Of a stretch of DNA of 37,662 nt, positions 1 through 19,204 are shown in pieces. This DNA comes from Rhodovarius sp. (GTDB lineage Bacteria; Pseudomonadota; Alphaproteobacteria; Acetobacterales; Acetobacteraceae), in contig JANWYF010000130.1 of assembly GCA_025057055.1 (NCBI GenBank), forward strand, positions 1-37,662, written 5' to 3'. Each line of letters starts with the position of its first letter. The stretch's first letter is position 1. The notes beneath the pieces are model-generated. The model saw only the letters and a list, made by a program, of their open reading frames with translations. It made no database searches and was not told the DNA's origin. Position numbers and translations under genes: made by a program.

Positions 1-27
1 GCGCGCATCGCCGCCGCGGTCAGGACC

Positions 28-1506: not shown

Positions 1507-1629
1507 CGCGCGGGCACCTCCCTTAACCCCATGCGGATATGGCCGGCCCAAGGCTAGCCCCGGAGGGCTCACCCGGCCATGCCGGGGCGGGGTTGCCGCC
1601 CCCGGGGGCGAGGGCTAGCGTGCGAGGCG

Positions 1630-2019: not shown

Positions 2020-2031
2020 GGGGCTAGGCCC

Positions 2032-3462
2032 TCACTCCGCCGCGAGCTGCGTCAGGTCGAGTTCGACCTGCGGCACGTCATAGGCGCGCAGTTCGGCATA
2101 AAGCCGGGGCAGATCGGCGCGAAACAGGCCCCGCGTCACCCCGGCGGCCAAGCGCGGCGCGCTGATCGCCATCGCGTTGATCGAACTGCCCGAGGGGCCG
2201 AAGCTCATCGTCGTGCCGATGCCGAAGAGGTGGATGTCGGCGATCCAGGGCGTCTCTCCCGGGCGGCGTTCGACGAAGGCACTGTCCTGGTTGAGGTAGG
2301 GAAAGCAGCCGAGGCGTTCGTTCGCCTCCTCGGGCGGGGGGGTGTAGCGGTCGCGCCAGAGCGCGATGTTGTGCGCACATTCGGCCAGTTCCGGGCAAAG
2401 GGTCGGGTCCATTCTGACCCCCGTCGCCGTGATGCAGAAATCGGCCCGGAACTCCCCGCGCGGGGTGGTCAGCACCACCCGTCCCTCCTCGATGCGCGCC
2501 GCTTCCCACGGGGCGCCGACATGCATGCGGAAGTTGGGAAAGCGCCGCACCCGGTCGTAGTGGTCCTGGGCGAAGCCCTCGCGCAGGCCGAGGATGTAGG
2601 ACATGAAGCGCCAGCGCCATTCGTCCGGCATCTCGCCCAGATGGCGCAGGAAGCCGGCGAAGGTCAGCCAGCGATAGGGCTGGATCACCACCGGTTCGGC
2701 GCGACGGCAGAAGAGGTGGACCTCGGCCGCGCCGGCCTCGAGCGCGACCGCGGCATTGTCGAAGGCCGAGGCGCCGGCGCCCAGCACCGCCACCACCTTC
2801 CCGCGCAGGCGGGTGAAGTCGATCATCTCGCTGCTATGGGCACGGAAGGGCCGCGGCAGGGCCGCGATCTCGGGCGGCATCCACCACCCCCCCACCCCCT
2901 CCTGCCCGGTGGCTAGCACCACCTTGCGCGCATGCATCGGGCCCGCGCTGGTCTCCACCCTGAGCGCCGGCAGCCCATCATCCGTCCGGGCCGGAGAGAT
3001 GCGCCCCGCCTCGATCCCGTTGCGCACCGGAATGCCGGTGACGCGGCGGAACCAGAGCAGATAGTCGTTCCAGTATTCCTTCGGGATCCAGCGCATCTCC
3101 TCCCAGTCGGCGCGGCCGAAGCGGGCTTCGTGCCAAGCCTGATAGGTCAGGCTCGGCATCCGCAGATCGGGGCCGGTCTGGTCTTTCCAGGAGCGCAGCG
3201 CCTTCATCCGCCCGTAGGTGACCCAGGGCCCCTCGCGCCCGTATTCCGCCCGGTCGATGCAGAGGATGTTGGTCACCTGGTCGCGCCGCAGCGCATGGGC
3301 CACCGCAAGCCCGCATTGCCCGGCGCCGATGATCAGCACATCCAGGCAGGGCGCGCCCCCCACCGTCTTGGGCGTGAGCCAGGGGGCGCGCGGATGGGCC
3401 GTCAGCTCCAGATCGCGGGCGATATCGGCCTCGAGCTCGACGAGGTTGCGGGGGGCGGGCAT
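2032..3462 (-). CDS. FAD/NAD(P)-binding monooxygenase-like flavoprotein
   Basis: A 476-residue flavoprotein resembling flavin-containing/Baeyer-Villiger-type monooxygenases. The first dinucleotide fold is LIIGAGQCG (about 44-51) for FAD. A second one, VAVLGAGASA (about 224-233), would bind NADPH. A late CITATGVRMD segment is the typical ATG motif linking the domains. There is no signal peptide, so it should be cytosolic. It lies 43 bp downstream of fhs on the same strand and may be co-transcribed. AAGGA about 6-8 nt before the ATG supports the start. Substrate unknown: the family oxygenates N, S or ketone groups. I do not see a clear FxGxxxHxxxW/P Baeyer-Villiger fingerprint, so I leave it as a general flavin monooxygenase-like enzyme. 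Confidence 0.9.
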   Translation of the reverse strand: MPAPRNLVELEADIARDLELTAHPRAPWLTPKTVGGAPCLDVLIIGAGQCGLAVAHALRRDQVTNILCIDRAEYGREGPWVTYGRMKALRSWKDQTGPDLRMPSLTYQAWHEARFGRADWEEMRWIPKEYWNDYLLWFRRVTGIPVRNGIEAGRISPARTDDGLPALRVETSAGPMHARKVVLATGQEGVGGWWMPPEIAALPRPFRAHSSEMIDFTRLRGKVVAVLGAGASAFDNAAVALEAGAAEVHLFCRRAEPVVIQPYRWLTFAGFLRHLGEMPDEWRWRFMSYILGLREGFAQDHYDRVRRFPNFRMHVGAPWEAARIEEGRVVLTTPRGEFRADFCITATGVRMDPTLCPELAECAHNIALWRDRYTPPPEEANERLGCFPYLNQDSAFVERRPGETPWIADIHLFGIGTTMSFGPSGSSINAMAISAPRLAAGVTRGLFRADLPRLYAELRAYDVPQVELDLTQLAAE

Positions 3463-3505
3463 GGATCGTCCTTGTTGCGCCGCATCATAGAGCGGCTGCG
3501 GAGCG

Positions 3506-5182
3506 TCAGAACAGGCCTTCGATCCGCCCTTCCTGGTCGAGGCGGATGGATTCTGCCGCCGGCACGCGCGGCAGGCCGGGCATGGTCATGATCTCGCCGC
3601 AGATCGCCACCACGAAGCCCGCTCCGGCGGCGAGCCGCGCATCGCGCACCGGCAGGCTGTGCCCCACCGGCGCGCCGAGCAGGTTCGGGTCGGCGGCGAA
3701 GGAATATTGCGTCTTGGCGATGCAGACCGGCAGGCGGCCGAAGCCCATCTCCTCGAAGCGGCGGAGCTTCTCCGCCGCGGCGGGGGCGAAGTCGACATGC
3801 TCGGCGCGGTAGATGTCGCGCGCGACGGTGGCGATCTTGTCCGAGAGCGAGACATGGTCGCTGTAGAGGGGCGCAAAGCCCGCGCCGCCGCCTGCGGCGA
3901 TGCGCGCCATCACCGCCTCGGCCAGGGCGACCGCCCCCGCCCCGCCATCGGCCCAATGCGTGCAGGCGATCGCCTCGCTGCCCGCGGGCGCCAGCGCCTC
4001 CTGCAGCGCCTGGAGCTCGGCCGGGCTGTCCTGGGCGAAGCGGTTGAGCGCGACGACGGGATCGAGGCCGAATTTGCGGATGTTCTCGATATGGCGCAGC
4101 AGATTGGCCGCCCCGCGCCGCACCGCCGCCGCATCCTCCTGCGCCAGGGCGGCACGCGGCAGGCCGCCATGCATCTTGAGCGCGCGCAGGCTGGCCACGA
4201 TCACCACCGCATCGGGCCGGAGCCCGGCGATGCGGCATTTGATGTGCATGAATTTCTCCGCGCCGAGATCGGCGCCGAAGCCGGCCTCGGTCACCACCAC
4301 GTCGGAGAGGTGCAGGGCGAGCCGTGTTGCCATGACCGAGTTGCAGCCATGGGCGATGTTGGCGAAGGGCCCGCCATGGACGAGGGCCGGGTTGCCCTCC
4401 AGCGTCTGGACCAGGTTGGGCGCCAGCGCATCGCGCAGCAGCACCGCCATCGCGCCATCGGCCTTGAGCTCGGCCGCCGTGACGGGCCGCCCCTGCCGCG
4501 TATAGCCCACGATGATGCGGCCGAGCCGGGCGGAGAGGTCGGCCAGGTCATCGGCAAGGCAGAGGATCGCCATCACCTCGCTCGCCACCGTGATGTCGAA
4601 GCCGTCCTCCCGCGGGAAGCCGTTGGCCACCCCGCCGAGCGAGGAGACGATGCTGCGCAGGGCGCGGTCGTTCATGTCGAGCACGCGCCGCCAGGTGATC
4701 CGCCGCGCATCGAGCCCGAGCGCATTGCCCCAGTAGATGTGGTTGTCCACCATCGCCGCGAGCAGGTTGTGCGCGCTGGTGATGGCGTGGAAATCGCCGG
4801 TGAAGTGGAGGTTGATGTCCTCCATCGGCACGATCTGGGCATGGCCGCCGCCGGCCGCTCCGCCCTTGACGCCGAAACAGGGCCCGAGGGAGGGTTCGCG
4901 CAGGCAGATCATGGCGCGCTGGCCGATGCGGTTCAGCGCATCGCCCAGGCCCACGGTGGTCGTCGTCTTGCCCTCCCCGGCCGGGGTCGGATTGATGCCG
5001 GTGACCAGCACCAGCCGCCCGGGCGGGCGTTCGCTGCGGATGCGGCGGCAGAAATCGAGCGCCACCTTGGCCTTGTGGCGGCCATAGGGCTCCAGCGCCT
5101 CCGCCGGTATGCCGGCCTGCGCGGCCACTTCCTGGATCGGGCGCAGGCGGGCCTGCCGCGCGATGGCAAGATCGATGGACAT
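3506..5182 (-). CDS. fhs: Formate--tetrahydrofolate ligase
   Basis: A 558-residue formate-tetrahydrofolate ligase (EC 6.3.4.3), which makes 10-formyl-THF from formate, THF and ATP and feeds purine, formyl-Met and C1 metabolism. Length and features are standard: a P-loop [11 protein letters not shown] (about 66-76), then [33 protein letters not shown] and the C-terminal [16 protein letters not shown]. The ATG at 5182 gives the family N-terminus [10 protein letters not shown] and is preceded by GGAGGGG about 9 nt upstream. The longer ORF start at 5266 adds 28 residues without family character. It is the likely first gene of a unit with the flavin monooxygenase-like gene. No serine-cycle or methylotrophy genes are near it, so the role is probably general C1 supply. 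Confidence 0.97.
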
Positions 5183-5357
5183 CTGGAACAATCCCCTCCG
5201 CCTGCTCATGTTGCCAGGATGAGAGGGCGCGTCCACCTGCCCACCCGCCCGCGCGGCCGACATCAAAATGCCGCTGGACGGACATGCGGCGTTGGTTCAT
5301 GACCGCCACGGCAATGTGGATGCAACGGATGCGGGGCGGGGGCATCGATTCTCGGAC

Positions 5358-6176
5358 ATGGAGGCGGTGACCCAGCCCGGCGCATCCGGTCCGGATGCCG
5401 GCTGCACTGGCGGCTGGACCGGCCTTGCCTCTGCCCCCCCGCGGGATGGGGGGGGCGGATCCTCTTCGGCCGCTCCTGCGGGGGGCAGAGCGCCGCCGGG
5501 CGAGGCCGAGGCCCATGCCGGCCCAGGCGGCGCGGGGCGGGCGCCTGGGCATGGCTGGCATGGCGATGGCAACGGCAACGGGGAATCCGCCCCGATCTCG
5601 CGCATCGTCCACCAGGTGGCGGCGCGTTTTCCCGGCGATCGCATCACGCTCGGCCAGATGGCCGAAGCCTTCGGGGACCGCGCCTTTGGCCTACTCATCC
5701 TGCTGCTCTGCCTGCCGGCGCTGCTGCCGGGCATGGCCAGCGTCTTCGGCCTGCCTATGCTGGTGATCGGCCTGCAGATGGGCATGGGCCGGCGCATTCC
5801 CCGCCTGCCGCAGTTCATCGCGCGCCAGTCGATCCGGCGCACCGATCTGCTGCGGCTGGCCGAGGGCTCCTCGAAATGGCTGCAGCGGGTCGAGCGCTAT
5901 GTCCGCCCGCGCCCCGGCCCCTTCACCGGCCCCTGGGGCGATCGGGTGGTGGGCTGGCTGACCGTCTATGCCTCCCTCATGCTGATCCTGCCCGGGCCGG
6001 GCACCAATGGCCCGCCCGCCTTCGGCACCATCGTCATGGCGCTCGGCGTGGTGGAGAACGACAGCAAGGTGGTGGGCTGGGGGGCGGCGATCTGCCTCGC
6101 CGGCTGCCTGTTTGCGAGCGGCGTTCTCCTGGTCCTGGCCTGGGTTGCGATCCGCGCCATGGGCTGGGTGGTCTGA
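5358..6176 (+). CDS. ExoD-like exopolysaccharide synthesis membrane protein with low-complexity N-terminal extension
   Basis: A 272-residue protein. From about residue 80 it matches ExoD: ISRIVHQVAARFPGDRITLGQM, then hydrophobic helices around GLLILLLCLPALLPG, MLVIGLQMGMGRRIPRLP, and two C-terminal membrane segments (VVGWLTVYASLMLILPGPGTN; AAICLAGCLFASGVLLVLAW). ExoD family proteins are inner-membrane proteins linked to exopolysaccharide production and alkali tolerance in rhizobia. The start is uncertain. No ATG, GTG or TTG exists between 5370 and the ExoD domain, so a Gly/Pro/Ala-rich extension of about 75 residues appears unavoidable. ATG 5358 is my choice; ATG 5268 and GTG 5367 are alternatives, and none has a good Shine-Dalgarno. 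It is divergent from fhs. Confidence 0.85.
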   Translation: MEAVTQPGASGPDAGCTGGWTGLASAPPRDGGGGSSSAAPAGGRAPPGEAEAHAGPGGAGRAPGHGWHGDGNGNGESAPISRIVHQVAARFPGDRITLGQMAEAFGDRAFGLLILLLCLPALLPGMASVFGLPMLVIGLQMGMGRRIPRLPQFIARQSIRRTDLLRLAEGSSKWLQRVERYVRPRPGPFTGPWGDRVVGWLTVYASLMLILPGPGTNGPPAFGTIVMALGVVENDSKVVGWGAAICLAGCLFASGVLLVLAWVAIRAMGWVV

Positions 6177-6211
6177 GGCGGGCGCCTCGGCGACCGGGGT
6201 GGCCGGGCGGC

Positions 6212-6232
6212 GCAGCGGCCCCCGGGGGCTGC
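6212..6232. terminator. GC-rich hairpin between convergent genes (possible terminator)
   Basis: GCAGC-GG-CCCCC facing GGGGG-CTGC forms a strong imperfect stem with a 2-nt bulge in the 97-bp gap between the convergent exoD-like and Bug-receptor genes. There is no T-run on either strand, so this is only a placement-based suggestion of a bidirectional stop. Confidence 0.28.
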
Positions 6233-6272
6233 CGGCAGCAGGTGATGCGGCCAGGCGAGGGCTCTGCCCCGC

Positions 6273-7250
6273 CTATTCGGCGCTGGCGCCGGAGAGGCGC
6301 ACCGCCTCGGCCCATTTCTCCACCTCGGCGCGCAGGAAGGCGGGGAAGCGGTCGGGGCCGATCTCCGCCGGCTCCACCCCCATGGCGCGCAGCCGCGCTG
6401 CCTGGGCGCGCGTGGCCGCCAGCACGATGCCGGCGATCCGTTCGATGAGCGCCATCGGCACCCCGCGCGGGGCGACCAGCCCCTGCCAGGCCACGGCCTC
6501 AAAGCCCGGCCAGTATTCGGCCACCGCCGGCACCTCGGGCCACTCGGGCAGCCGGGCGGAGGTGGAGACCGCAATCGGCCGGATCGCGCCGGCCCGGGCA
6601 TGCGGGGCGGAGGGGGGCAGGTTCTCGAAGGTCGCGTGGATGCGCCCGGCCACCAGTTCGGTGATGGCCGGCGCGCTCCCGCGGAAGGGCAGATGGACCG
6701 CCGCAAAGCCGCCGCGATGACGGATCAGCTCCATCGCCAGATGGGGCAGCGTGCCCACGCCCGCGCTGCCATAGCTGATGCCCTGCGGCTGCGCCCGGGC
6801 CCAGGCCAGGAAGCCCGGGAAATCCCGCACCGGGACGGAGGGATGGACGGCCAGCAGATTGGGCACGAGCCCGATCACGCAGGCCGGCGTGAAATCGCGC
6901 AGCACATCGAAGGGCAGCCGGCGATAGAGGGTGACATTGGCGGCATGGGCCGCGGCCAGGGTCAGCCAGACCGACCCGTCGGCCGGGGCGCGCGCGACAT
7001 GTTCGGCGCCCAGATTGCCCCCCGCCCCGGGCCGGTTCTCCACCACCACCGGGATGCCGAGCGCCTCCGCGATCGCCTGGGCGGCGAAGCGCGAGAGCAT
7101 GTCCGAAGCCCCGCCCGGGGTATAAGGGCTCACGATGCGCATGGCGGCCGGCTGGGCCCGGGCGAGGGCGGGCAGGGCGAGCGCGGCGACCACGGCGCGT
7201 CGGCCGGGCGCCAGGGGATGCGGGCGCGCAGGGGGCGGCTTGCCGGTCAT
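6273..7250 (-). CDS. Bug/TctC-family tripartite tricarboxylate transporter solute receptor
   Basis: A 325-residue periplasmic binding protein of the TctC (Bug) family, which captures carboxylated or aromatic small molecules for TTT-type uptake. It has an exported N-terminus (GRRAVVAALALPALARAQ, about 16-33). The mature start MRIVSPYTPGGASDMLSR is the family ligand-binding pattern, followed by VENRPGAGGNLGAEHVARAPADG. The ORF track merges it with an upstream shadow (6273-8090); the real ATG at 7250 overlaps the acyl-CoA dehydrogenase stop by ATGA, which indicates translational coupling. No TctA/TctB membrane genes are in the window, so it is an orphan receptor, as is common in Acetobacteraceae and Burkholderiales. 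The partner enzyme suggests an acid that is activated to a CoA thioester. The ligand is unknown. Confidence 0.92.
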   Translation of the reverse strand: MTGKPPPARPHPLAPGRRAVVAALALPALARAQPAAMRIVSPYTPGGASDMLSRFAAQAIAEALGIPVVVENRPGAGGNLGAEHVARAPADGSVWLTLAAAHAANVTLYRRLPFDVLRDFTPACVIGLVPNLLAVHPSVPVRDFPGFLAWARAQPQGISYGSAGVGTLPHLAMELIRHRGGFAAVHLPFRGSAPAITELVAGRIHATFENLPPSAPHARAGAIRPIAVSTSARLPEWPEVPAVAEYWPGFEAVAWQGLVAPRGVPMALIERIAGIVLAATRAQAARLRAMGVEPAEIGPDRFPAFLRAEVEKWAEAVRLSGASAE

Positions 7251-8425
7251 GGCCTCTCCTCCCTCAGCAGCGTCCTGCCGATCAGCAGGCGCTGGATGTC
7301 CGAAGCGCCTTCGAAGATGCGAAACAGCCGCGCATCGCGGTAGAATTGCTCGACCACGCTGCCGCGCATGTAGCCCGCCCCGCCATGCAGCTGCACCGCG
7401 CGATCGGCCACCCGGCCCAGCATCTCGGAGGCGAAGAGCTTGCAGCAGGCGATATCGGCGATCAGTTCGCCGCGCGCCTCGCCGGCGGCATCGAAGGCGC
7501 GCGCGGTCTCGAGGACCATGCTGCGGGCGGCCAGGATCTCGGCCCGGCAATCGGCCAGCGCCGCCTGCACGAGCTGGAAGGAGGCGAGCGGCTGCCCGAA
7601 CTGCCGCCGCCGCTGAGCGTGGCCGACCATCTCCTCGAGCAGGCGTTCGGCCTGGCCCACGCAGGCGGTCGCGACATGCAGCCGGGCGTGGTTGATGCCG
7701 CGCATCGCGGTCTTGAAGCCATCCCCTTCCCGCCCGCCGATCAGATGATCGGCCGGGATGCGCACGCGGTCGAAGAAGACCTCGCAGGTCGAGCTGCCGT
7801 CCTGGCCCATCTTGCGGTCGGGCGGGCCGCAGCGAATGCCGGGCAGGTCGGCCGGCACCAGGAAGGCGGAGATGCCCGAGGCGTCCCGGCTGCCCGGCCG
7901 GGTGCGGGCCATCACGATGAACAGCTGCGCCTGCCGCGCATTGGTGATGTAGCGCTTGCGCCCCTCGATGACCCACTCTTCGCCCTCGTGCCGGGCGGTG
8001 GTGGTGATGCCGCCGGCATCGCTGCCCGCTTCGGGTTCGGTGAGGGCGAAGGCGGCCGTGACCTCTCCGCGGGCCATGCGCGGCAGCCATGCCGCGCGCT
8101 GCGCATCCGTGCCGTTGTAGAGGATCGGCTGGCTGCCCAGCCCGATGGTGGTCGAGAAGCGCGCGCGATAGACGGCCGAGGCGCGCGTGACCTCGAACAT
8201 GACGCGCACCTGCTGTTCCATCGACAGGCCGAGGCCGCCCCAGCGCGCCGGGATCGAGATGCCGAACAGGCCGGCCGCGCGCAGCCGGTCGGTGAGGTCC
8301 TCGGGCAGGGTCTCCTGCCCCTCAAGCCGCGGCTCGTTCGGGATCAGCACCTCCCGCACCAGGCGGCGGATGGAATCGAGATAGGCCGCGAAGTCGACCG
8401 CGGGGGGCGGCGGCGCATCGGGCAT
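7247..8425 (-). CDS. Acyl-CoA dehydrogenase
   Basis: A 392-residue FAD-dependent acyl-CoA dehydrogenase of usual length. [19 protein letters not shown] (about 130-150) is the flavin/substrate signature. [23 protein letters not shown] is the second ACADH signature, and [10 protein letters not shown] (369-378) carries the Glu at about 372 expected as catalytic base. Family members insert the alpha,beta double bond of an acyl-CoA and pass electrons to ETF. The gene starts at ATG 8425 and overlaps the Bug receptor by 4 bp, so the two form an operon. This pairing suggests uptake and beta-oxidation-like breakdown of an unidentified carboxylic acid. It is divergent from uvrB with a 70-bp gap. Confidence 0.95.
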
Positions 8426-8480
8426 GGCGTCTCCTCCGCCGCCGAGCCTCGCGCGCGGTGGTCGGCCGGGTCAAGCGCCC

Positions 8481-8495
8481 TATATTGCGGCCGGC
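8481..8495 (+). promoter_or_regulatory. Possible uvrB -10 element giving a near-leaderless mRNA
   Basis: TATATT at 8481-8486 stands out in GC-rich surroundings and lies only 9 nt before the uvrB ATG. No Shine-Dalgarno is present in the last 9 nt (GCGGCCGGC). If it is the -10 box, transcription would start within a few bases of the ATG. The -35 region at 17-18 bp spacing (GTGGTC/GGTGGT) is poor. I found no GTTC-N7-GTTC alphaproteobacterial SOS box here. Confidence 0.35.
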
Positions 8496-10709
<2,214 letters not shown>

Positions 10710-10726
10710 GTCACGCGATTCCGATT

Positions 10727-10755
10727 TTGCCAAGCCGGCAGCCTTGGGCTAGTAT
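10727..10755 (+). promoter_or_regulatory. Candidate sigma70-type promoter for the intergenic RNA
   Basis: TTGCCA (10727-10732), a 17-bp spacer, then TAGTAT (10750-10755). This is a good housekeeping-type promoter by sequence and lies just after the uvrB stop. The predicted start is near 10762, immediately before the first hairpin of the candidate RNA. Confidence 0.5.
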
Positions 10756-10761
10756 TTGTCC

Positions 10762-10881
10762 ATCCGGCGCTGCCCCCACAGCGCCGGTGGACGGTCCGGT
10801 ATCCCCTGCCGGCTCGCCCTACCATTCCGATCGGAACAATAACCATGGCGCCCGGTCACCCCCCTGGCCGGGCGTTTTTTT
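10762..10881 (+). ncRNA. Candidate small RNA (about 120 nt) or terminating leader between uvrB and the FAH-family gene
   Basis: The 285-bp gap after uvrB holds no convincing ORF but does hold a complete RNA-gene layout. There is a promoter (TTGCCA-N17-TAGTAT), a perfect 9-bp stem CCGGCGCTG/CAGCGCCGG with a 6-nt loop (10764-10787), a 12-bp perfect palindrome TTCCGATCGGAA (10825-10836), an A-rich single-stranded stretch (ACAATAACCA), and a GC hairpin followed by seven Ts. It could be a stand-alone trans-acting small RNA, or a leader that terminates early before the gene at 10995. I do not recognise it as a known family such as 6S, SRP RNA, tmRNA or RNase P. The evidence is structural only. Confidence 0.45.
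10849..10881 (+). terminator. Rho-independent terminator
   Basis: CGCCCGG (10849-10855) pairs perfectly with CCGGGCG (10868-10874) and is followed directly by TTTTTTT (10875-10881). It is one of only two clear intrinsic terminators I found in the window. It would end the candidate RNA and any read-through from uvrB. Confidence 0.82.
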
Positions 10882-10994
10882 GCCGCCATTTGCGGGGCTT
10901 GCAGCCGGGACTTGACATCCCGCGCGAAGCGCCCCGCCCCTGTTCAGCCGGCCCTCCTGTGCTAATGCGCGCACTCCCCGCGAGGAGGCCCGTG

Positions 10995-11681
10995 ATGCCA
11001 GAATATGTCTTCCCGCCGCCGCCCCAGCCCTTCCTGCCGATCCGCGGCAGCAGCGCGGTCTTTCCGATCCGGCGCATCTTCTGCGTCGGGCGCAACTACG
11101 CCGAACATGCGATCGAAATGGGCAGCGACCCGACGCGGGAACCGCCCTTCTATTTCACCAAGCCCGCGGATGCGGTGGTGATCGGCGGGGCGGATACGCC
11201 CTATCCTACCCGCACGCGCGACCTGCACCATGAGATGGAGCTGGTGGTTGCCATCGGCCGCGGCGGCAGCCACATTCCGGTGGGGGAGGCGCTTTCCCAC
11301 GTCTTCGGCTATTGCGCCGGGCTCGATCTGACCCGCCGCGACCTGCAGAACGAGGCCAAGAAGACCGGCCGCCCCTGGGATATGGGCAAGGCCTTCGACC
11401 ACTCCGCCCCGATGGGCGATCTGGTGCCCGCCGCCGGCATCGACTGCAGCCGCGGCCGCATCGAACTGCGCGTCAACGGCGAGCTGCGCCAGGCCTCCGA
11501 CCTCTCCAAGCTCATCTGGTCGGTGCCGGAGGTGATCGCCAACCTCTCCGAACTGGTCGCGCTGGCGCCCGGGGATTTGATCATGACCGGCACGCCCGAG
11601 GGGGTGGCGGCGGTGGTGCGCGGCGATCTGCTCGAGGGCTTCATCGAGGGCGTGGGTGAGGTCCGCACCCGCATCGTCTGA
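10995..11681 (+). CDS. Fumarylacetoacetate hydrolase family protein (fumarylpyruvate hydrolase-like)
   Basis: A 228-residue single-domain FAH-family enzyme. RIFCVGRNYAEHAIEMG (about 27-43) is the usual opening. HHEMELVVAIG (78-88) gives the metal ligands Glu80 and Glu82, and GYCAGLDLTRRDLQ gives Asp111. MTGTPEGV near the end is the family signature. The size and the RNYAEHA/KPADA pattern fit fumarylpyruvate hydrolases of gentisate degradation and acylpyruvases/oxaloacetate decarboxylases. No gentisate dioxygenase or maleylpyruvate isomerase is nearby, so the substrate is not settled. The ATG at 10995 is preceded by GAGGAGG about 6 nt upstream. The longer ORF from 10845 would run through the terminator and is rejected. 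It is followed after 4 bp by xth. Confidence 0.92.
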   Translation: MPEYVFPPPPQPFLPIRGSSAVFPIRRIFCVGRNYAEHAIEMGSDPTREPPFYFTKPADAVVIGGADTPYPTRTRDLHHEMELVVAIGRGGSHIPVGEALSHVFGYCAGLDLTRRDLQNEAKKTGRPWDMGKAFDHSAPMGDLVPAAGIDCSRGRIELRVNGELRQASDLSKLIWSVPEVIANLSELVALAPGDLIMTGTPEGVAAVVRGDLLEGFIEGVGEVRTRIV

Positions 11682-11685
11682 GACG

Positions 11686-12498
11686 ATGGCAAGGCCGCTG
11701 CGCATCGCGACCTGGAACATCAACTCGATCCGCTTGCGCCTGCCGCTGATCGGGCGGGTGCAGGCGGCGCTCGATGCCGATGTGCTCTGCCTGCAGGAGA
11801 CGAAGTGCCCCGATGAGCTCTTCCCGCGGGCCGAACTCCAGGCGCTGGGCTTTGCCCATGTCGCGGTGCGCGGGATGAAGGGCTATAACGGCGTGGCCGT
11901 CCTCTCGCGCCTGCCCTTTATCGAGCTCTCTGGCCTGCCGGACTGGGTGGGGCGGGCGGATTGCCGCCACCAGGCGGTGCTGCTCGACGCCCCGGGCGGG
12001 CCGATCGAGCTGCACAACTGCTATGTGCCGGCGGGTGGCGATGTGCCAGACCGGGAAGCCAACCCGAAATTCGCCCACAAGCTCGATTTCCTGGCCGAAA
12101 AGGCGGCCTTCTGGGCCCCGCGCGCCGGCCAGCCGCGGCGGGTGCTGCTTGGGGATCTCAACATCGCCCCGCTCGAGCACGATGTCTGGTCGCATCGCGA
12201 GCTTCTGGATGTGGTCAGCCACACCCCGATCGAGGTCGAGGGGCTGACCGCCTGGCAGCAGGCCGGCGCCTGGCACGATGCGGTGCGGCATTTCGTGCCG
12301 GCTGACCAGAAGCTCTACACATGGTGGTCCTATCGCGCGCGCGACTGGGCGGCCTCCGACCGCGGGCGGCGGCTCGATCACATCTGGGTCTCGCCCGATT
12401 TGGTCGGCAATCTGTCGCGCCAGCTGGTGCTCAAGCCCGCCCGGGGCTGGGAGAAGGCCTCGGACCATGTGCCGGTGATGGTGGAGCTTGCGCTGTGA
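11686..12498 (+). CDS. xthA: Exodeoxyribonuclease III (AP endonuclease)
   Basis: A 270-residue Mg-dependent exonuclease III of the EEP fold, acting in base excision repair on abasic sites and 3' blocks. Motifs in order are ATWNINSIRLRL (about 9-20), LQETKCPDE with the metal-binding Glu, GYNGVAVLSR, GDLNIAPLEHDVW with catalytic Asp/Asn, RLDHIWVS, and SDHVPV with the catalytic His near the C-terminus. It starts 5 bp after the FAH-family stop, so the two are probably co-transcribed. The upstream ORF extension to 11656 overlaps the previous gene and is unnecessary. The symbol follows the common name for this family. Confidence 0.95.
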   Translation: MARPLRIATWNINSIRLRLPLIGRVQAALDADVLCLQETKCPDELFPRAELQALGFAHVAVRGMKGYNGVAVLSRLPFIELSGLPDWVGRADCRHQAVLLDAPGGPIELHNCYVPAGGDVPDREANPKFAHKLDFLAEKAAFWAPRAGQPRRVLLGDLNIAPLEHDVWSHRELLDVVSHTPIEVEGLTAWQQAGAWHDAVRHFVPADQKLYTWWSYRARDWAASDRGRRLDHIWVSPDLVGNLSRQLVLKPARGWEKASDHVPVMVELAL

Positions 12499-12523
12499 GG
12501 CGGGGCCCGGCCCGCGCGGGGGC

Positions 12524-13117
12524 ATGAGGCTGCTTGCGCTCGAATCGGCCGGGCCGCGCTGTTCGGCTGCGCTGCTTGAGGATGACCGGGTGCTGGCCCA
12601 TGCCGCCGCCGCGGCGCCGCGCGGCCATGCCGTGCTGCTGCCCGTGCTGGCGGCGCGGGTGCTGGGCGATGGCGCGATCGATCGGGTGGCGGTGGGGGTG
12701 GGGCCGGGCGGCTTCACCGGCCTGCGGGCCGGCCTCGCCCTGGCCTTAGGGATTGCGGCCGGGCGGGGGGTGCCGGTCATCGGCGTCTCGACCGGAGATG
12801 CGCTGGCCGCGCTGACCGACGCCCCGCCGGGCTGGGCGGTCTGGGCTGCCATCGACAACAAGCGCGGCCTGCTCTTCCTCGAACGGCCGGGGGCCGATCC
12901 GATCGCCTGCGCCGAGGCGGCCCTTCCCGCTCCCGAGGGGCCGGTGGTGGTGGTGGGCGATGCCGCCCCGCGCGCGGCGGCGCGGCTGCTTGCCCGGGGG
13001 GCGCGGGTCATGCTGGGCGAGGCGCGGCTGGCGGATGCGATCGGGGTGGGGCGTGCGGCGCTGCGCGCGCCGCGCCCGCCGGTGCCGATCTATGTCGACC
13101 CCCCCGCCGTCACCTGA
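12524..13117 (+). CDS. tsaB: tRNA threonylcarbamoyladenosine biosynthesis protein TsaB
   Basis: A 197-residue TsaB (YeaZ), the non-catalytic ASKHA-fold partner that assembles with TsaD and TsaE for t6A37 modification of tRNA. LLALESAGPRCSAALL (3-18) is the phosphate-1 type strand. VGVGPGGFTGLRAGLALALGIA is the highly conserved TsaB helix, with VPVIGVSTGDALA after it. The ATG at 12524 gives a start typical of the family; ORF extensions upstream are not. It overlaps rimI by 26 bp, the usual tsaB-rimI pairing of Alphaproteobacteria, which supports both calls. TsaD itself is not in the window. Confidence 0.94.
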   Translation: MRLLALESAGPRCSAALLEDDRVLAHAAAAAPRGHAVLLPVLAARVLGDGAIDRVAVGVGPGGFTGLRAGLALALGIAAGRGVPVIGVSTGDALAALTDAPPGWAVWAAIDNKRGLLFLERPGADPIACAEAALPAPEGPVVVVGDAAPRAAARLLARGARVMLGEARLADAIGVGRAALRAPRPPVPIYVDPPAVT

Positions 13118-13550
13118 GGCCCCGGCCATCCGGCCTGCGGGGGCGGAGGCTGCGGGCGAACTCGCCGCCATCCATGCCGCTGCCTTTCCGCCCGGGGAGG
13201 CATGGGCAGAGGGGGCGATCGCCGCCCTGCTCGCCACGCCGGGCTGCTTCGCCCTGCGGCAAGGGATGGCGGGTTTCGTGATGGCGCGCGTGGCCGCCGA
13301 TGAGGCGGAGCTCCTCACCCTGGCCGTCTGCCCGCCGGCGCGGCGGCGCGGCATCGGGCTCGCGCTGGTCGATCAGGCGGCGGCGGTCGCCCTCGCTCTC
13401 GGTGCGCGCAGCCTCTGGCTCGAGGTCGGGGCGGAGAATGCCGCGGCGCGCGCGCTGTATGCCAAGGCAGGTTTCGTCGAGGCGGGCCGGCGGCGCGACT
13501 ATTACGGCGCGGGGCGGGATGCCCTGGTGCTGCGGCTCAGCCTTTCCTGA
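13092..13550 (+). CDS. rimI: Ribosomal-protein-alanine N-acetyltransferase RimI
   Basis: A 152-residue GNAT acetyltransferase. The acetyl-CoA loop is seen as CPPARRRGIGLALVDQ (motif A, about residues 78-93: R-R-G-I-G-x-A). It is preceded by AELLTLAV and followed by LWLEVGAENAAARALYAKAGFVEAGRRRDYY, the typical RimI motif B with catalytic Tyr and the NAAARALYxKxGF pattern. RimI acetylates the N-terminal Ala of S18, and TsaB/TsaD neighbours are known RimI partners by context. I start at ATG 13092, inside the end of tsaB; the longer ORF from 12960 lies wholly over tsaB coding sequence. Its 3' end overlaps the opposing TusA-like gene by 14 bp. Confidence 0.91.
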   Translation: MSTPPPSPEAPAIRPAGAEAAGELAAIHAAAFPPGEAWAEGAIAALLATPGCFALRQGMAGFVMARVAADEAELLTLAVCPPARRRGIGLALVDQAAAVALALGARSLWLEVGAENAAARALYAKAGFVEAGRRRDYYGAGRDALVLRLSLS

Positions 13551-13782
13551 GGAGGAGGCGGCCCGGCTCGTGCAGCAGCACGGCATGGCCTTGTTCCGCG
13601 GCGGTGCGGGGCAGGTTGCGCGCCGGCTCCTCGCCGGCGTAGAGCACCTCGAGCACCTCGCCGGGTGCCATCCGGTCGAGCATCAGGCGGGTGCGGACGA
13701 AGGTCATCGGGCAAGTCTCCCCCCGGATGTCCAGGCGCCGCTGTGGCGAAATACCTTCCGGCGGAATGTGCTGGTCAGCCAT
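13537..13782 (-). CDS. TusA/SirA-like sulfurtransferase
   Basis: An 81-residue TusA/YedF-family protein. RLDIRGETCPMTFVRTRLML (16-35) carries the signature Cys-Pro dyad (C24-P25), whose Cys accepts persulfide sulfur in 2-thiouridine or molybdenum-cofactor/sulfur-oxidation pathways. It is full length for the family. GEVLEVLYAGEEPARNLPRTAAEQGH corresponds to the second half of the fold. It is divergent from mucR (94-bp gap) and overlaps the rimI 3' end on the opposite strand. No tus or dsr partner is adjacent, but the sox/DsrE-like cluster at the window end shows that the organism handles inorganic sulfur. Specific role unknown. Confidence 0.9.
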   Translation of the reverse strand: MADQHIPPEGISPQRRLDIRGETCPMTFVRTRLMLDRMAPGEVLEVLYAGEEPARNLPRTAAEQGHAVLLHEPGRLLLRKG

Positions 13783-13876
13783 GCGTCAATCCAGCCCCTT
13801 GGCCGATATTGCGAAACGCCCAGCATCCCGTGTATCCAGCGCTGCGGGCGGCAATGCTGCTCCGGTAGAGGACGCC

Positions 13877-14311
13877 ATGACGAACGACAGCCCGAATAGC
13901 CCGGACCTTCTCGGCCTGACCGCCGAAATCGTGTCCGCCCATGTTGCCAACAACCCCGTGCCGATGACTGAGCTGCCGACGTTGATCGCGCAGGTGCATG
14001 CCGCCCTCGCCAACCTCGGCCGCCCGGCCCCGGCGCCGGAGGTGAAGCGGCAGGAGCCTGCGGTCCCGATCAAGAAGTCCGTCCATCCCGACTATCTGAT
14101 CTGTCTCGAGGACGGCAAGAAGCTCAAGATGCTCAAGCGCCACCTCAAGACCGCCTACAACATGACGCCGGAGCAATACCGCGAGAAGTGGGGCCTGCCG
14201 CCGGACTACCCCATGGTGGCCGAGAACTACGCCAAGCGGCGTTCCGCCCTGGCGAAGGAGATCGGGCTCGGCACCCGCTCGCGCAACCGGCAGGCCAAGG
14301 CGAAGGCCTGA
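13877..14311 (+). CDS. MucR/Ros-family transcriptional regulator with altered zinc-ligand set
   Basis: A 144-residue MucR/Ros protein, a DNA-binding regulator that in Alphaproteobacteria controls exopolysaccharide, motility and virulence genes. The N-terminal part (LLGLTAEIVSAHVANNPV, about 11-28) is the conserved oligomerisation region. The DNA-binding part is YLICLEDGKKLKMLKRHL (73-90) then MTPEQYREKWGLPPDYPMV. Compared with Ros (C-x2-C-x9-H-x3-H-H), Cys76 and His89 are kept, the second Cys is Asp79, and the following His pair is Ala93-Tyr94. Metal-free versions of this fold are known, so the protein may fold without zinc. The ATG at 13877 gives the family N-terminus. It is upstream of fur on the same strand. 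Confidence 0.95.
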   Translation: MTNDSPNSPDLLGLTAEIVSAHVANNPVPMTELPTLIAQVHAALANLGRPAPAPEVKRQEPAVPIKKSVHPDYLICLEDGKKLKMLKRHLKTAYNMTPEQYREKWGLPPDYPMVAENYAKRRSALAKEIGLGTRSRNRQAKAKA

Positions 14312-14334
14312 GCGGTCAGGGCACGCTTTCCCCG

Positions 14335-14361
14335 GGCCGGAATGCCGCCTATCTTCCGGCC
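14335..14361 (+). promoter_or_regulatory. Inverted repeat over a possible fur promoter
   Basis: GGCCGGAA (14335-14342) and TTCCGGCC (14354-14361) are perfect inverted arms 11 nt apart. They enclose and overlap TATCTT (14350-14355), a plausible -10 box with TTTCCC 17 bp upstream. The site could be an operator or a mucR-fur intergenic hairpin. A 10-codon ORF (ATG 14363 to TGA 14395) follows at once. Confidence 0.33.
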
Positions 14362-14442
14362 GATGAGGCAAGGCCGCAACCCGTGGCGGTGGTGAGCGAG
14401 GCAGGAACCGCACGACGCGGGACCGTCGGGGAGGCGCGCCCG

Positions 14443-14865
14443 ATGTCCCGCATCGAACAGATGTGCGTCGAACGCGGCGTCAAGATGACGGGCCAGCGGC
14501 GGCTGATCGCGCGCGTGCTCTCGGAGAGCGACGATCATCCGGACGTCGAAGAGCTCTACCGCCGCGCCGCGCGCATCGACGAGCGCGTCTCCATCGCCAC
14601 CGTCTATCGCACCGTCCGCCTGCTCGAGGAGAAGGGCATCGTCGCGCGGCGCGATTTCGGCGAGGGTCGCGCCCGCTATGATCCGGCCCATCGCGGCCAC
14701 CACCACCACCTGATCGACGTCGACACCGGCAAGGTGATCGAGTTCAAGGACCCGGCACTCGAGAAGCTCGCGGCCGAGATTGCGGACCGGCTCGGCTTCT
14801 CGCTGGTCGATGTCCGGCTGCAGCTCTTCGCGCGCCGCAACGAGGGGACAGGGCCCAAGCCATGA
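14443..14865 (+). CDS. Fur-family metalloregulator (Fur/Mur type)
   Basis: A 140-residue Fur-family repressor. The winged helix spans KMTGQRRLIARVL, HPDVEELYRRA and VSIATVYRTVRLLEEKGIV (about 14-67). The regulatory metal site is HRGHHHHLIDVDTGKVIEF (83-101). There are no CxxC zinc motifs in the C-terminal half, which is normal for alphaproteobacterial Fur/Mur and Irr. The sequence after HHHH (LIDVDTGKVIEF) fits Fur/Mur better than Irr. In Rhizobiales such proteins sense Mn or Fe; which metal applies here is unknown. The start MSRIEQMCVERG matches homologues and has GGGGAGG about 9 nt upstream. Its stop overlaps the start of the OlsB-like gene by ATGA, so the two are translationally coupled. 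Confidence 0.93.
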   Translation: MSRIEQMCVERGVKMTGQRRLIARVLSESDDHPDVEELYRRAARIDERVSIATVYRTVRLLEEKGIVARRDFGEGRARYDPAHRGHHHHLIDVDTGKVIEFKDPALEKLAAEIADRLGFSLVDVRLQLFARRNEGTGPKP

Positions 14866-15659
14866 GCCCGGTCTTCGAGGAGATCCGAGCCGGCCACCTC
14901 GGTGTCCGGCTGGCCGAAACGCAGGCCGAGATCGAGGCCGGCCTGCGCCTGCGCTATGAGGTCTTCGTGCGCGAGATGGGAGCCACTGCGGATGAGGAGG
15001 CGCGCGCGACCGGCCTCGAACGCGACGCCTTCGATGCGGTGGCCGACCATCTGCTGGTGCTCGACCATGACCGCGGCGAAGGCGCGGCGGGCGTGGTCGG
15101 CACCTACCGCCTGATCCGCCGCCCGGCGGCCGAGAAGATGGGCCGCTTCTACAGCGCCGACGAATACGACATCTCCCCCCTCCTCGCCTTCCCGGGAGAG
15201 ATCCTGGAGCTCGGCCGCTCCTGCGTGGCGGCGGCCTATCGCACGCGCGGGACGCTGCAGCTGCTCTGGCAGGGCATTGCCGCCTATGTCTTCCACTACC
15301 GCATCGCCCTGATGTTCGGCTGCGCAAGCCTGCCCGGCCTCGATCTTGAGGCCAATGCGGCGCAGCTCTCCTACCTCTATCACCACCACCTCGCGCCGCC
15401 CGAGCTGCGGCCGCGCGCCATCCCCTCGCGCTACGTGGCGATGGAGCGGCTGCCCCGCGGCGCCTACGACCCCAAACGCGCCCTGCACGAGCTGCCGCCG
15501 CTGATCAAGGGCTATCTGCGCCTCGGCGGCTTCGTGGGCGATGGCGCGGTGCTGGATGCCTCCTTCAACACCACCGACGTCTGCGTGGTGGTCAAGACCG
15601 ACCAGGTCACCGAGAAATACTACCGCCACTACGAACGCAAGGTGGGCGGGGCCGGTTGA
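14862..15659 (+). CDS. olsB: OlsB-like ornithine N-acyltransferase / GNAT-fold acyltransferase
   Basis: A 265-residue acyltransferase of the OlsB/hemolysin-like family. OlsB transfers a 3-hydroxyacyl group from ACP to ornithine, the first step to phosphorus-free ornithine lipids. Seen are LRLRYEVFVREMGA (about 28-41), the family N-terminal pattern, AFDAVADHLLVLD, VVGTYRLIRR, the Tyr/Ser segment GRFYSADEYDISPLL, LELGRSCVAAAYRTRGTLQLLW, and a C-terminal LPPLIKGYLRLGGFVGDGAVLD. These match OlsB closely in order and spacing. No OlsA is nearby. Coupling by a 4-bp overlap to a Fur-type regulator suggests that membrane lipid make-up is linked to metal status; this is inference. The symbol is assigned on family resemblance only. 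Confidence 0.84.
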   Translation: MSPVFEEIRAGHLGVRLAETQAEIEAGLRLRYEVFVREMGATADEEARATGLERDAFDAVADHLLVLDHDRGEGAAGVVGTYRLIRRPAAEKMGRFYSADEYDISPLLAFPGEILELGRSCVAAAYRTRGTLQLLWQGIAAYVFHYRIALMFGCASLPGLDLEANAAQLSYLYHHHLAPPELRPRAIPSRYVAMERLPRGAYDPKRALHELPPLIKGYLRLGGFVGDGAVLDASFNTTDVCVVVKTDQVTEKYYRHYERKVGGAG

Positions 15660-15690
15660 AGCGCGGGCGCCGTCCCGCCAAATACGGACC

Positions 15691-16506
15691 ATGCCAGTCT
15701 CCATTCTGCCGGACCGGGCGGTGATCGAGCTCGCAGGAGAAGACCGCATCACCTTCCTGCAGGGCCTCGTCTCCAACGATGTCCGCCAGGCCGGGCCGGG
15801 CCGGGCGGTCTTTGCCGCCTTCCTCACGCCCCAGGGCCGGTGGCTGGCTGATTTCTTCATCCACGCCACGCCCGATGCCCTGCTGCTCGATTGCGAGGCG
15901 GGGCATGTGCCCCTCCTGGTCCAGCGCCTCTCCCGCCTGCGCCTGCGCGCCCGCATCCGCCTCTCCGAGACGGGGCGGGCGGTCCTCGTCGGCTGGGGTG
16001 ATGCCGCGCCGATCCCGGGCGCCGTCCCCGACCCGCGCCTGGCCGAGGCCGGCTGGCGTGCCATCGGCGCGCCGGGCGATGCGCCCGACCTGTCGGAGGC
16101 CTATGATCTGCATCGCCTCGCCCTCGGCCTGCCGGATGGCAGCCGCGACCTGCGCGCCGAACAGACCCTGCTGCTCGAGGCCGGCTACGACGAGCTCCAC
16201 GCCATTTCCTGGGACAAGGGCTGCTACCTGGGCCAGGAGCTGACGGCGCGCACCCGCTACCGCGGCCTGATCAAGCGGCGGCTGATGCCGGTCAGGGTGG
16301 AAGGGCCGCTGCCCGCCCCCGACACGGCGGTGCTGCTCGATGGCGCCGAGGTGGGGGAGATGCGCTCCGGCCGCAGCGGGCTTGGCATCGCCATGCTGCG
16401 GCTGTCCGCGCTGGCGGCCTCCCGCCCCCTCGCCTGCGGCCAGGCGCTGCTCCACCCCGCCCCGGCGCCCTGGATGCGCCTGCCGGCCCTGAGCGATGCC
16501 GGCTGA
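15691..16506 (+). CDS. ygfZ: YgfZ/GcvT-family folate-binding protein (Fe-S maintenance)
   Basis: A 271-residue protein with the GcvT fold. The decisive motif is KGCYLGQE (176-183), the K-G-C-Y-x-G-Q-E signature of YgfZ/IBA57. It is followed by TARTRYRGLIKRRLMPV. The N-terminal ITFLQGLVSNDV and AFLTPQGRWLADFFI are also typical. YgfZ/IBA57 proteins bind folate and support assembly or repair of [4Fe-4S] enzymes such as radical SAM proteins. It is slightly shorter than E. coli YgfZ but usual for Alphaproteobacteria. The ATG at 15691 excludes a shadow N-terminus over the previous gene. Its end overlaps the methyltransferase-like gene by 11 bp. Confidence 0.9.
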   Translation: MPVSILPDRAVIELAGEDRITFLQGLVSNDVRQAGPGRAVFAAFLTPQGRWLADFFIHATPDALLLDCEAGHVPLLVQRLSRLRLRARIRLSETGRAVLVGWGDAAPIPGAVPDPRLAEAGWRAIGAPGDAPDLSEAYDLHRLALGLPDGSRDLRAEQTLLLEAGYDELHAISWDKGCYLGQELTARTRYRGLIKRRLMPVRVEGPLPAPDTAVLLDGAEVGEMRSGRSGLGIAMLRLSALAASRPLACGQALLHPAPAPWMRLPALSDAG

Positions 16507-16972
16507 GGGCGAAGCACCGCCCGACCGGGGGCCGGGCGTTGGGATCCCGCCGCCCGCCGGGGTGCTGGCCGGCCTCATCGCCGCCCAGCTGCTCAACCTC
16601 CTCCTGCCCCTGCGGCTCGGCCCGCCGGCGGTGCCGCTGGCGGTCCTGGTCGCGCTCTTCGCCCTGGTCTGGATCGGCTGGGCGCTGATCGTGCTGGTCA
16701 AGGCCGGCAATGATCCGCGCCCTGACCGGCCGGATACCGCGCTGGTCGAGCGCGGGCCCTATCGCCTGTCGCGCAATCCGATCTATTCGGGCTTCGTGCT
16801 GTTCCTGACGGCGGTTGCGCTCTACGACGGCATGTTGTGGTCCTGGCTGGCGGTCGGTGCGGTCTTCCTCTGGCTCGACTTCGCCGTGGTGCGGAAGGAG
16901 GAGGCCTATCTCGCCCGCCGCTTCGGCCCGGCCTATGAGGCCTATCAGCGCCGCGTCCGGCGCTGGCTGTAG
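16496..16972 (+). CDS. Isoprenylcysteine carboxyl methyltransferase (ICMT/PEMT)-family membrane protein
   Basis: A 158-residue integral membrane protein. The C-terminal catalytic region is easily recognised: TALVERGPYRLSRNPIYSGF (81-100) binds the SAM methyl donor, and the end has EEAYLARRFGPAYEAYQRRVRRWL with the usual Glu and Tyr/Arg pattern. Three or four hydrophobic helices lie at about 22-40, 46-69, 98-113 and 117-133. Bacterial members methylate unknown lipophilic or small substrates; eukaryotic ICMT methylates prenylated Cys. An 11-bp overlap with ygfZ implies co-expression. The exact substrate is unknown. Confidence 0.87.
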   Translation: MPAEGEAPPDRGPGVGIPPPAGVLAGLIAAQLLNLLLPLRLGPPAVPLAVLVALFALVWIGWALIVLVKAGNDPRPDRPDTALVERGPYRLSRNPIYSGFVLFLTAVALYDGMLWSWLAVGAVFLWLDFAVVRKEEAYLARRFGPAYEAYQRRVRRWL

Positions 16973-17040
16973 GCGAAGAGGGCAGGGGCCCCCGCTGCGC
17001 GCGCGGCCCTCCTCGGTCGCCTCCTCCCGCCGCCTCTCTC

Positions 17041-17054
17041 CGAACCCGGGTTCG
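17041..17054. other. Perfect 14-bp palindrome in a convergent intergenic gap
   Basis: CGAACCCGGGTTCG is a perfect palindrome, followed 12 nt later by CCCAGCCTGGG (17067-17077). Both lie in the 152-bp gap between the convergent ICMT-like and TRAP-receptor genes. Neither has a T-run. They could be transcript-end hairpins or a protein-binding site; nothing decides between these. I see no gene in the gap. Confidence 0.33.
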
Positions 17055-17124
17055 CCCCCTCTCCCAGCCTGGGTGCCGGGGCCGGCTCACCCCTCCGGCT
17101 CGCTGCGGCCCTCCGCCATCCGCT

Positions 17125-18111
17125 CTAGGACGCGCGCAGCGCCGCGCGGTAGGCCTCCAGCACCTGCCGCCCCTCGGGGCCGGCGCGCTGCGCCCATTCC
17201 TCGGTCTGGCGGGCGCCGATCTCGCGCAGCTGGGCCATCAGCTCGGCCGAGGGTTGGCTGATCACCATCCCCCGCTCGCGCAGGCGCGCGACCATCTCGC
17301 TCTCCGCCGCCTTGGCCCAGGCGAGACCCCGGCTGCGGGCGCGTTCGGCGGCGGCCAGGATGGCCGATTGCGTGGCCTGATCCAGCGCGCGGAAGGCCCG
17401 GGCGTTGACCAGCACCGCATTGCGCGCGCGCATGCCGCCGACATCGGTGAAGACGCGGGCATAATCCCAGGCGCTGGTATCGACCCCGGTCTGGGCCGAG
17501 GTGAACATCGCCGCGATCACGCCGGTGGCGAAGGCCTGCGGGATCTCGGCCACCTGCACAGTGACCGGGATCGCGCCCATCAGCTCGGCCATCCGCTGGG
17601 TGAGCGCGTTGTAGGTGCGAAAGCGCACGCCACGCAGATCGGCGACGGTGCGGATCTCGCTGCGGGTGTAGAAGCCCTGGCTCGGCCACGGCACGAGATA
17701 GAGCGGGATCAGCCCCTGCCGTTCCAGCCGCGCGCGGATGAAGGGTTCCGACACGCGATCCAGCGCCGCCGTGGCCTCCCAGGTGTCGGCGAGGAAGGGG
17801 ATGCTGTCGAGCTCGAAGAAAGGGTCCTCGTTGCCGTGGACCGACAGCAGCACTTCGCCGAGCTGGATCTGCCCGGTCTGCACGCTGCGCTTGATCAGCG
17901 GCATCGACAGCAGCGAGGCCGCGGCATGGAGCTGGATGGCGAGCCGACCCTCGGTGGCCTGCTGCACATCCTCGATGAAGGCGCGGATGTTGCGGGTATG
18001 GAAATTCCCCTCCGGATAGGCGCTGGCCATGGTCCAGCGCAGGGGGGCCTGGGCGAGGGCGGCGGGGCCGAAGGCGGCGGCCCCAAGCAGGCTGCGGCGG
18101 CGGATGGTCAT
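17125..18111 (-). CDS. TRAP transporter solute receptor, DctP family (orphan)
   Basis: A 328-residue periplasmic receptor. The leader MTIRRRSLLGAAAFGPAALAQ has a twin-Arg plus hydrophobic core, cleaved near residue 21. The mature protein begins APLRWTMASAYPEGNFHTRNIRAF. GVRFRTYNALTQRMAELMGAIPV includes the conserved Arg that binds the substrate carboxylate in DctP proteins, and the QVAEIPQAFATGVIAAMFT region follows. No permease gene is attached. It is divergent from the LigI-like hydrolase at 18335, while the next TRAP operon 1 kb away has its own receptor. It may serve that transporter as an alternative receptor. The 678-aa ORF on the same strand in another frame (17087-19123) is a shadow. 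Confidence 0.92.
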   Translation of the reverse strand: MTIRRRSLLGAAAFGPAALAQAPLRWTMASAYPEGNFHTRNIRAFIEDVQQATEGRLAIQLHAAASLLSMPLIKRSVQTGQIQLGEVLLSVHGNEDPFFELDSIPFLADTWEATAALDRVSEPFIRARLERQGLIPLYLVPWPSQGFYTRSEIRTVADLRGVRFRTYNALTQRMAELMGAIPVTVQVAEIPQAFATGVIAAMFTSAQTGVDTSAWDYARVFTDVGGMRARNAVLVNARAFRALDQATQSAILAAAERARSRGLAWAKAAESEMVARLRERGMVISQPSAELMAQLREIGARQTEEWAQRAGPEGRQVLEAYRAALRAS

Positions 18112-18236
18112 GCTCTGTTCCCTCCCGGTGGCGATCGCGCACCGGGGGCAGCATCGCGCGCGCGCGGCGGCCGGGGCAAGGCCCGGGCTGGCCGGGACCG
18201 CAGGCCGGGAGTAGCCTGCCGCTGCGGAGGAAACCG

Positions 18237-18338
18237 ATGAGCGAGAGACCGGCGCCGATCCCGCCTGCCCTGCCGCCCGCCCGGCGGCGCAACCGCTGCC
18301 GCAGCCGCTCAGCCGAGAGGGGGGCGGGCGCGGCATGA
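18237..18338 (+). CDS. Possible 33-residue small ORF translationally coupled to the amidohydrolase gene
   Basis: ATG 18237 lies 6 nt after GGAGG (GCGGAGGAAACCG), a better ribosome site than any near the next gene. The ORF reads MSERPAPIPPALPPARRRNR and continues basic and Ser-rich to a TGA at 18336-18338. That TGA overlaps the amidohydrolase ATG at 18335 (ATGA). The peptide is Pro/Arg-rich with no domain. It may be a leader that couples translation of the downstream gene, a small protein, or a remnant. The rest of the 223-bp gap shows no other gene. No ORF of this length would normally be called without the Shine-Dalgarno and the overlap. Confidence 0.32.
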   Translation: MSERPAPIPPALPPARRRNRCRSRSAERGAGAA

Positions 18339-19192: not shown

Positions 19193-19204
19193 CCCGCGCC
19201 CTGC

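Follow-up and report, generated by a model that had tools for sequence, protein, structure and literature searches.

The described family nearest to the RNA reported here is alpha-r14/NfeR1 (Rfam RF02344), which has C-rich anti-Shine-Dalgarno (anti-SD) loops and is activated by LsrB. In alpha-r14, the anti-SD motif CCUCCUCCC is present in each of the three hairpin loops. NfeR1, with its CCUCCUCCC anti-SD loops, is activated by LsrB at the box TGCA-N6-GCAT, located at -72 to -60 (PMC10746234). GsrN of Caulobacter crescentus, likewise an alphaproteobacterial sRNA, acts with an exposed C-rich loop on the G-rich leader of katG mRNA (PMC5869019). C-loop sRNAs of this kind, which pair with G-rich mRNA sites, typically expose near-invariant C runs while their stems diverge (NfeR1, PMC10746234; GsrN, PMC5869019). 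Furthermore, AbcR1 and AbcR2 (alpha-r15) are trans-acting alphaproteobacterial sRNAs linked to the LysR-type regulator LsrB/VtlR (PMC7486931, PMC8844928), which activates an AbcR sRNA in Agrobacterium (PMC7486931). In the transcriptome paper on M. gryphiswaldense, BjrC80 is the only sRNA from Rfam that is given.

Here we analyzed a stretch of 37,662 nt from Rhodovarius sp. (Acetobacteraceae; contig JANWYF010000130.1), referred to as the window. The gap 3' of uvrB contains a real, previously uncatalogued sRNA gene; many Alphaproteobacteria have kept it next to xthA, a DNA-repair gene. Rfam 15 had no match at the window; gathering and permissive scans gave sub-threshold noise (FsrA with 19.2 bits and others). 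A literature search, with most subscription papers and the non-Rfam sRNA databases outside its range, found no sRNA described at this locus.

The predicted sRNA gene and its parts

The predicted gene is freestanding, covers positions 10761-10881 of the forward strand (about 120 nt), and has a sigma-70-like promoter and four hairpins, namely H1, H2, H3, and the terminator. A promoter scan matched the -35 region TTTTGCCA (10725-10732, forward strand), which contains the hexamer TTGCCA (10727-10732), and, after a spacer of N17, the -10 element TAGTAT (10750-10755, forward strand). From this promoter, transcription is predicted to start at approximately 10761-10763. The pattern TTTTGC-N17/18-TANNNT was present in 53 of the 93 acetobacterial members, which are related and thus do not represent independent events, while 0.1 was expected from mononucleotide shuffles. 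A GANTC site (GATTC) lies at 10717-10721, just 5' of the -35 region, and is found in several relatives too; it is a possible input for CcrM/GcrA.

H1, the 5' hairpin (10764-10787, forward strand), is composed of 9 perfect pairs (10764-10772/10779-10787) and the loop CCCCCA. Its sequence varies among relatives, and in other families its pairs show two-sided changes. H2 (10789-10819, forward strand) has an imperfect stem and the exposed C-rich loop UCCCC (10802-10806), a candidate seed for target pairing; 8 of its 11 pairs showed two-sided changes in the alignment made outside the window's family. H3 (10825-10836, forward strand) is a UUCC/GGAA hairpin with the self-complementary loop GAUC and corresponds to the palindrome TTCCGATCGGAA. 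The equivalent hairpin outside the acetobacterial members is GCUCC..GGAGC, with non-palindromic loops. The A-rich linker CAATAACCAT (10837-10846, forward strand) was single stranded in the ensemble calculation and may contact Hfq.

The intrinsic terminator (10847-10881, forward strand) has a stem of 12 pairs (10847-10858/10865-10876), seven U residues (10875-10881), and the exposed loop CCCCCC (10859-10864), the second candidate seed. Its upper stem shows covariation, but the loop, (A)CCCCCC(U), hardly varies. In order, the loops of the window RNA are CCCCCA, UCCCC, GAUC, and CCCCCC. Two of them, UCCCC of H2 and CCCCCC of the terminator, are C rich, predicted to be unpaired, and nearly invariant.

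Most of the earlier note's description of the gap agrees with this anatomy. TTGCCA, the N17 spacer, TAGTAT, the palindrome, and the A-rich linker are all where it had placed them, and the perfect 9-bp hairpin at the predicted 5' end was confirmed. The note had assigned to the terminator a perfect 7-bp stem and seven T residues; the T residues stand, and the stem has to be corrected to 12 pairs. The two structured parts that it had seen before the terminator are both present, but it missed a fourth hairpin, H2, the loop of which is among the two most conserved parts.

A small open reading frame was considered and rejected: an ATG at 10845 in the linker opens a frame that runs through the terminator into the gene downstream (10845-11681, 278 amino acids), an arrangement that is not conserved. 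As a coding start, the linker ATG is not conserved; it was present in only 17 of 93 members and was rarely in frame.

Could such a set of elements arise by chance, from GC-rich intergenic inverted repeats and a uvrB terminator? The earlier note had held that terminators are very rare here and that the complete set is therefore improbable. This argument is not enough by itself: in positions 1-20000 of the window, we found 5 terminator-like sites with 5.1 expected, and 3 promoter-like sites with 1.2 expected from shuffles. Since the counts of consensus promoters and terminators are close to the shuffled expectation, rarity alone does not exclude chance. The fold of 10760-10882 was more stable than that of shuffled sequences (z of -4.7). 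Chance is nevertheless untenable, because the element is conserved in other genomes. Conservation, covariation, the fixed position, and recovery with an independent model, as described below, refute it, and we give it virtually no probability.

Conservation, covariation, and genomic position

A DNA search of 60 relatives detected the element both in the genus and more widely in the family, with matches down to an E value of 4e-36, and 14 sequences aligned over the whole element. In this alignment, the H2 loop with its 3' arm (UCCCC-U-GCCGGCUCGCCC), H3, and the terminator were nearly invariant, while H1 varied. According to RNAalifold, the uppermost pairs of the terminator stem have changed in a compensatory manner, with the loop CACCCCCCUG unchanged. 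Model R1 matched 105 of 300 genomes of the same family at an E value of ≤0.01; roughly 80 of these matches were above 40 bits, and the remainder were weak, including some near the cutoff.

The H3 loop (10829-10832 in the window) was self-complementary in 88 of 89 acetobacterial members (GATC in 81, GTAC in 6, and AATT in 1) and in none of the other members. This sequence pattern looks as if it were selected, perhaps for dimerization by kissing or for a DNA site that overlaps the loop. Additionally, in Pseudoroseomonas/Roseomonas variants (L126, L141, L179, and L200), the H2 loop was shortened to GGUCCCCAACC or AGUCCCCAUGG, and one more run of CCCCCC was located just 5' of the terminator.

Matches to R1 were likewise obtained in genomes from many other families of the Alphaproteobacteria. 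The elements in these genomes have a common plan, which comprises H1, H2 (with a loop of the UCCCC type), H3 (GCUCC..GGAGC), and the terminator GCGCCCGG..CCCCCC..CCGGGCGC. Weak R1 matches of about 20 to 35 bits (L068, L074, L076, L085, and L086) were judged by eye to be chance. Alignment A4, for which the structure was named by hand, comprised 29 sequences, and the window's family was left out. In it, 81% of the cells paired, and 27 of the 37 pairs showed two-sided changes. Altogether, 109 cells had two-sided changes, compared to 48.8 in shuffles and 38 to 72 in slid controls; the structure was partly derived from the same sequences, which biases the comparison toward the unslid register; the excess is nevertheless large.

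Model R2, built from A4, matched the window at 10766-10881 with 54.4 bits (E value of 5e-8). This was the only significant match in the 3.07-Mb genome, the next best having an E value of 3.7. Since the window's family is not represented in R2, the window served as an unseen test sequence, although the R2 members were first found with R1, so that the discovery itself is not independent. In 385 genomes of the class, R2 yielded 60 matches at an E value of ≤0.001 and 33 matches of at least 45 bits in approximately 19 families. The sole match outside the class in a sample of the phylum was weak (36 bits), and we therefore trusted matches from about 45 bits upward. A plasmid collection searched with the Paramagnetospirillum RNA gave no match. 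In a subgroup (L071, L089, L256, and L260), a 5' GCCCCCCCGCT-GCA segment and an H2-like hairpin with the loop AUCCCCUC were seen; in some of these, the terminator had no C loop, and none of the four had xthA within the fetched flank.

Thus, the covariance comparison with relatives that the earlier note had proposed was run, and conserved structure was present in the relatives. The reading as a small RNA is borne out by deep conservation, covariation, and recovery with a model trained outside the family.

In the window, the gene order is uvrB, sRNA, FAH, and xthA. FAH, a gene of the FAA_hydrolase family (10995-11681, forward strand; Pfam PF01557), is a conserved neighbor and was taken as a separate transcription unit. 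The exonuclease III-like xthA (11656-12498, forward strand; Pfam PF03372) is the conserved neighbor of the RNA across the class. On the upstream side, uvrB (8424-10709, forward strand) is the neighbor in the window's genus; elsewhere, it is lolA, often with ftsK (both names come from reading the translations and not from a family search). The usual order in relatives is (ftsK-)lolA, sRNA, (FAH), and xthA, all on one strand.

This constant same-strand place upstream of FAH/xthA, together with a terminator that ends 113 nt before the FAH start, would suit a cis-acting leader or attenuator, in which transcription starts near 10762 and termination or readthrough controls FAH and xthA. The earlier note had raised such a leader ahead of the gene at 10995. 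However, the regulated gene of an attenuator should be constant, and here the downstream gene alternates: FAH follows in some families, while in others (L063, L121, L127, and L134) it is missing and xthA lies directly 3' of the RNA. The distance from the RNA to FAH ranges from about 70 to 940 nt in different relatives, and both genes are absent within 1.5 kb in several members. Moreover, the terminator stem is always formed (helix 5, 100% of the cells paired in the 29 class sequences), and no conserved antiterminator alternative was noticed in the class sequences. Because the downstream gene and the distance vary, an independent gene fits better than the leader of one operon. In view of the element's own conserved promoter and terminator as well, the leader is disfavored, and we regard it as improbable.

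In summary, the computation revealed a conserved promoter, a four-hairpin fold with covariation, near-invariant exposed C runs, and a conserved position. The general characteristics of an intergenic trans-acting sRNA, that is, its own promoter and terminator, a conserved structure, and the lack of a conserved open reading frame, are all found at this locus. We conclude that 10761-10881 is likely to be an independently transcribed trans-acting sRNA of about 120 nt, belonging to an uncatalogued alphaproteobacterial family upstream of xthA and acting through C-loops directed against G-rich sequences.

Exposed C runs and putative upstream regulation

The C-run loops were nearly invariant while the stems diverged. 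In the ensemble calculation, the mean unpaired probability of the H2 C run, evaluated in each sequence at its most open C run, was 0.94 in the 93 acetobacterial members and 0.94 elsewhere. For the C run of the terminator loop, the corresponding values were 1.00 and 0.98. Since NfeR1 and GsrN also show near-invariant exposed C runs on diverging stems, multitarget antisense control is proposed. By analogy to rhizobial NfeR1, the two exposed C runs probably pair with G-rich ribosome-binding sites of mRNAs. The C-rich loops would base pair with several mRNAs at G-rich sequences in the SD region or 5' UTR, which would alter the translation or stability of these mRNAs, as the NfeR1 anti-SD loops do. 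Hfq perhaps binds the A-rich linker and the U tail.

Exposed C loops alone are not proof of mRNA pairing, and the RNA may instead bind a protein. A conserved fold carrying two loops with similar C runs would also suit a sponge, with the repeated C-rich loops titrating an RNA-binding protein instead of contacting mRNAs. To our knowledge, there is no matching protein for CCCC(CC) loops in this clade, which counts against such sequestration. Furthermore, the functionally studied alphaproteobacterial C-loop sRNAs, NfeR1 and GsrN, pair with G-rich mRNA sites (PMC10746234, PMC5869019). Protein sequestration is thus very unlikely in our estimation, and pairing with mRNAs remains the preferred reading.

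Upstream of the promoter, most non-acetobacterial lineages have a candidate activator box. We searched the upstream 100 nt of 49 members that were assigned to the non-acetobacterial group by sequence signature; two or three of these could be divergent acetobacterial sequences. A perfect ATGC-N7-GCAT dyad was present in 23 members, and 33 had it when up to one mismatch was allowed; the dinucleotide shuffles gave a mean of 5.8 and a maximum of 12. The enrichment was confined to a spacer of 7, with no other spacer from 4 to 10 comparably enriched. In the upstream regions of L062-L088 and L097-L188, the dyad was often followed, after about 9 nt, by a third ATGC half-site. Read as sequence, ATGC-N7-GCAT is a LysR-type T-N11-A box. 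It was not recognizable in the window, where the best match had 2 mismatches, or in the acetobacterial clade. In most non-acetobacterial members, an LsrB/VtlR-like LysR-type regulator would activate transcription at this box, with LsrB itself as a candidate.

These data add an uncatalogued conserved sRNA family, which covers Paramagnetospirillum and Roseomonas-type lineages, for which almost no described sRNAs were found. The family comes with a fixed address upstream of xthA and two defined candidate pairing loops. Together with the activator box, these features make an LsrB-to-sRNA circuit, as known from rhizobia and relatives, testable as a class-ancestral trait. It is conceivable, albeit doubtful, that a redox-sensing LysR protein of the LsrB/VtlR type activates the lolA-xthA sRNA, which would be an ancient regulator of the Alphaproteobacteria and would couple oxidative or nutrient signals to multitarget translational control via C-loops. 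In the Rhizobiales, NfeR1/alpha-r14 and comparable C-loop sRNAs would then be its descendants or paralogues, and the Acetobacterales would have gained the self-complementary H3 loop, which could allow dimerization by kissing.

Comparison with described alphaproteobacterial sRNAs

GsrN differs from the window RNA in several respects. It is under the control of sigma-EcfG and carries the functional loop close to its 5' end, and its homologues are typically located near ecfG/phyR. As judged from the conserved promoter pattern and the neighbors, the window RNA has neither the sigma-EcfG promoter nor the linkage to ecfG/nepR/phyR; its promoter is the sigma-70-like TTTTGC-N17/18-TANNNT, and the neighbors are uvrB or lolA, FAH, and xthA. 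The AbcR genes of Agrobacterium differ in location, since they lie downstream of vtlR, and whole-library Rfam scans of the window and 20 relatives gave no match to the AbcR family (alpha-r15).

The resemblance to alpha-r14/NfeR1 is closer, and the window RNA could be a true divergent orthologue and family member, not a look-alike, which would be compatible in mechanism with a trans-acting sRNA. Both share a plan of a hairpin with a C-rich loop, a middle hairpin, and a C-loop terminator. In the relatives, ar14 was the only plausible family among the sub-threshold Rfam matches. With the ar14 model, the best relatives (L064 with 31.8 bits and L072 with 28.7 bits) gave weak, full-length matches exactly on the element, compared to a gathering score of 58.8. 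In addition, a differently built C-loop RNA is located directly upstream of xthA in L218 (1500-1622); it has a hairpin with a UUUCCCCCCUG loop and a terminator loop containing CCCC, and it scored 35.2 bits with the Rfam ar14 model. This match beside xthA hints at a common origin, and the shared format of the LysR-type box, seen in most non-acetobacterial members but not in the window or the acetobacterial clade, is in line with orthology. However, among 372 class genomes, none reached 58.8 bits with the ar14 model, and the matches were mostly at different loci; two genomes, G565 and G485, had the R1/R2 match at a locus separate from that of the ar14-like match. The window itself had no ar14 match and no CCUCCUCCC motif, and assignment to alpha-r14 was therefore rejected. 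Orthology is thus unlikely, and we retain the reading as a separate family.

This family differs from alpha-r14 in its loops (UCCCC and CCCCCC instead of CCUCCUCCC), in having four hairpins and not three, and in its place at lolA-(FAH)-xthA. Like alpha-r14/NfeR1 of Sinorhizobium meliloti, it is a predicted trans-type sRNA of similar length with a C-loop terminator at its end, and C-rich, anti-SD-like loops are kept while the stems diverge (PMC10746234). NfeR1 also has a sigma-70 promoter with an LsrB T-N11-A box upstream, and the ATGC-N7-GCAT of many members has the same format (PMC10746234). Although not filed as a member of the alpha-r14 family, the window RNA would, as far as its anatomy tells, work like alpha-r14/NfeR1.
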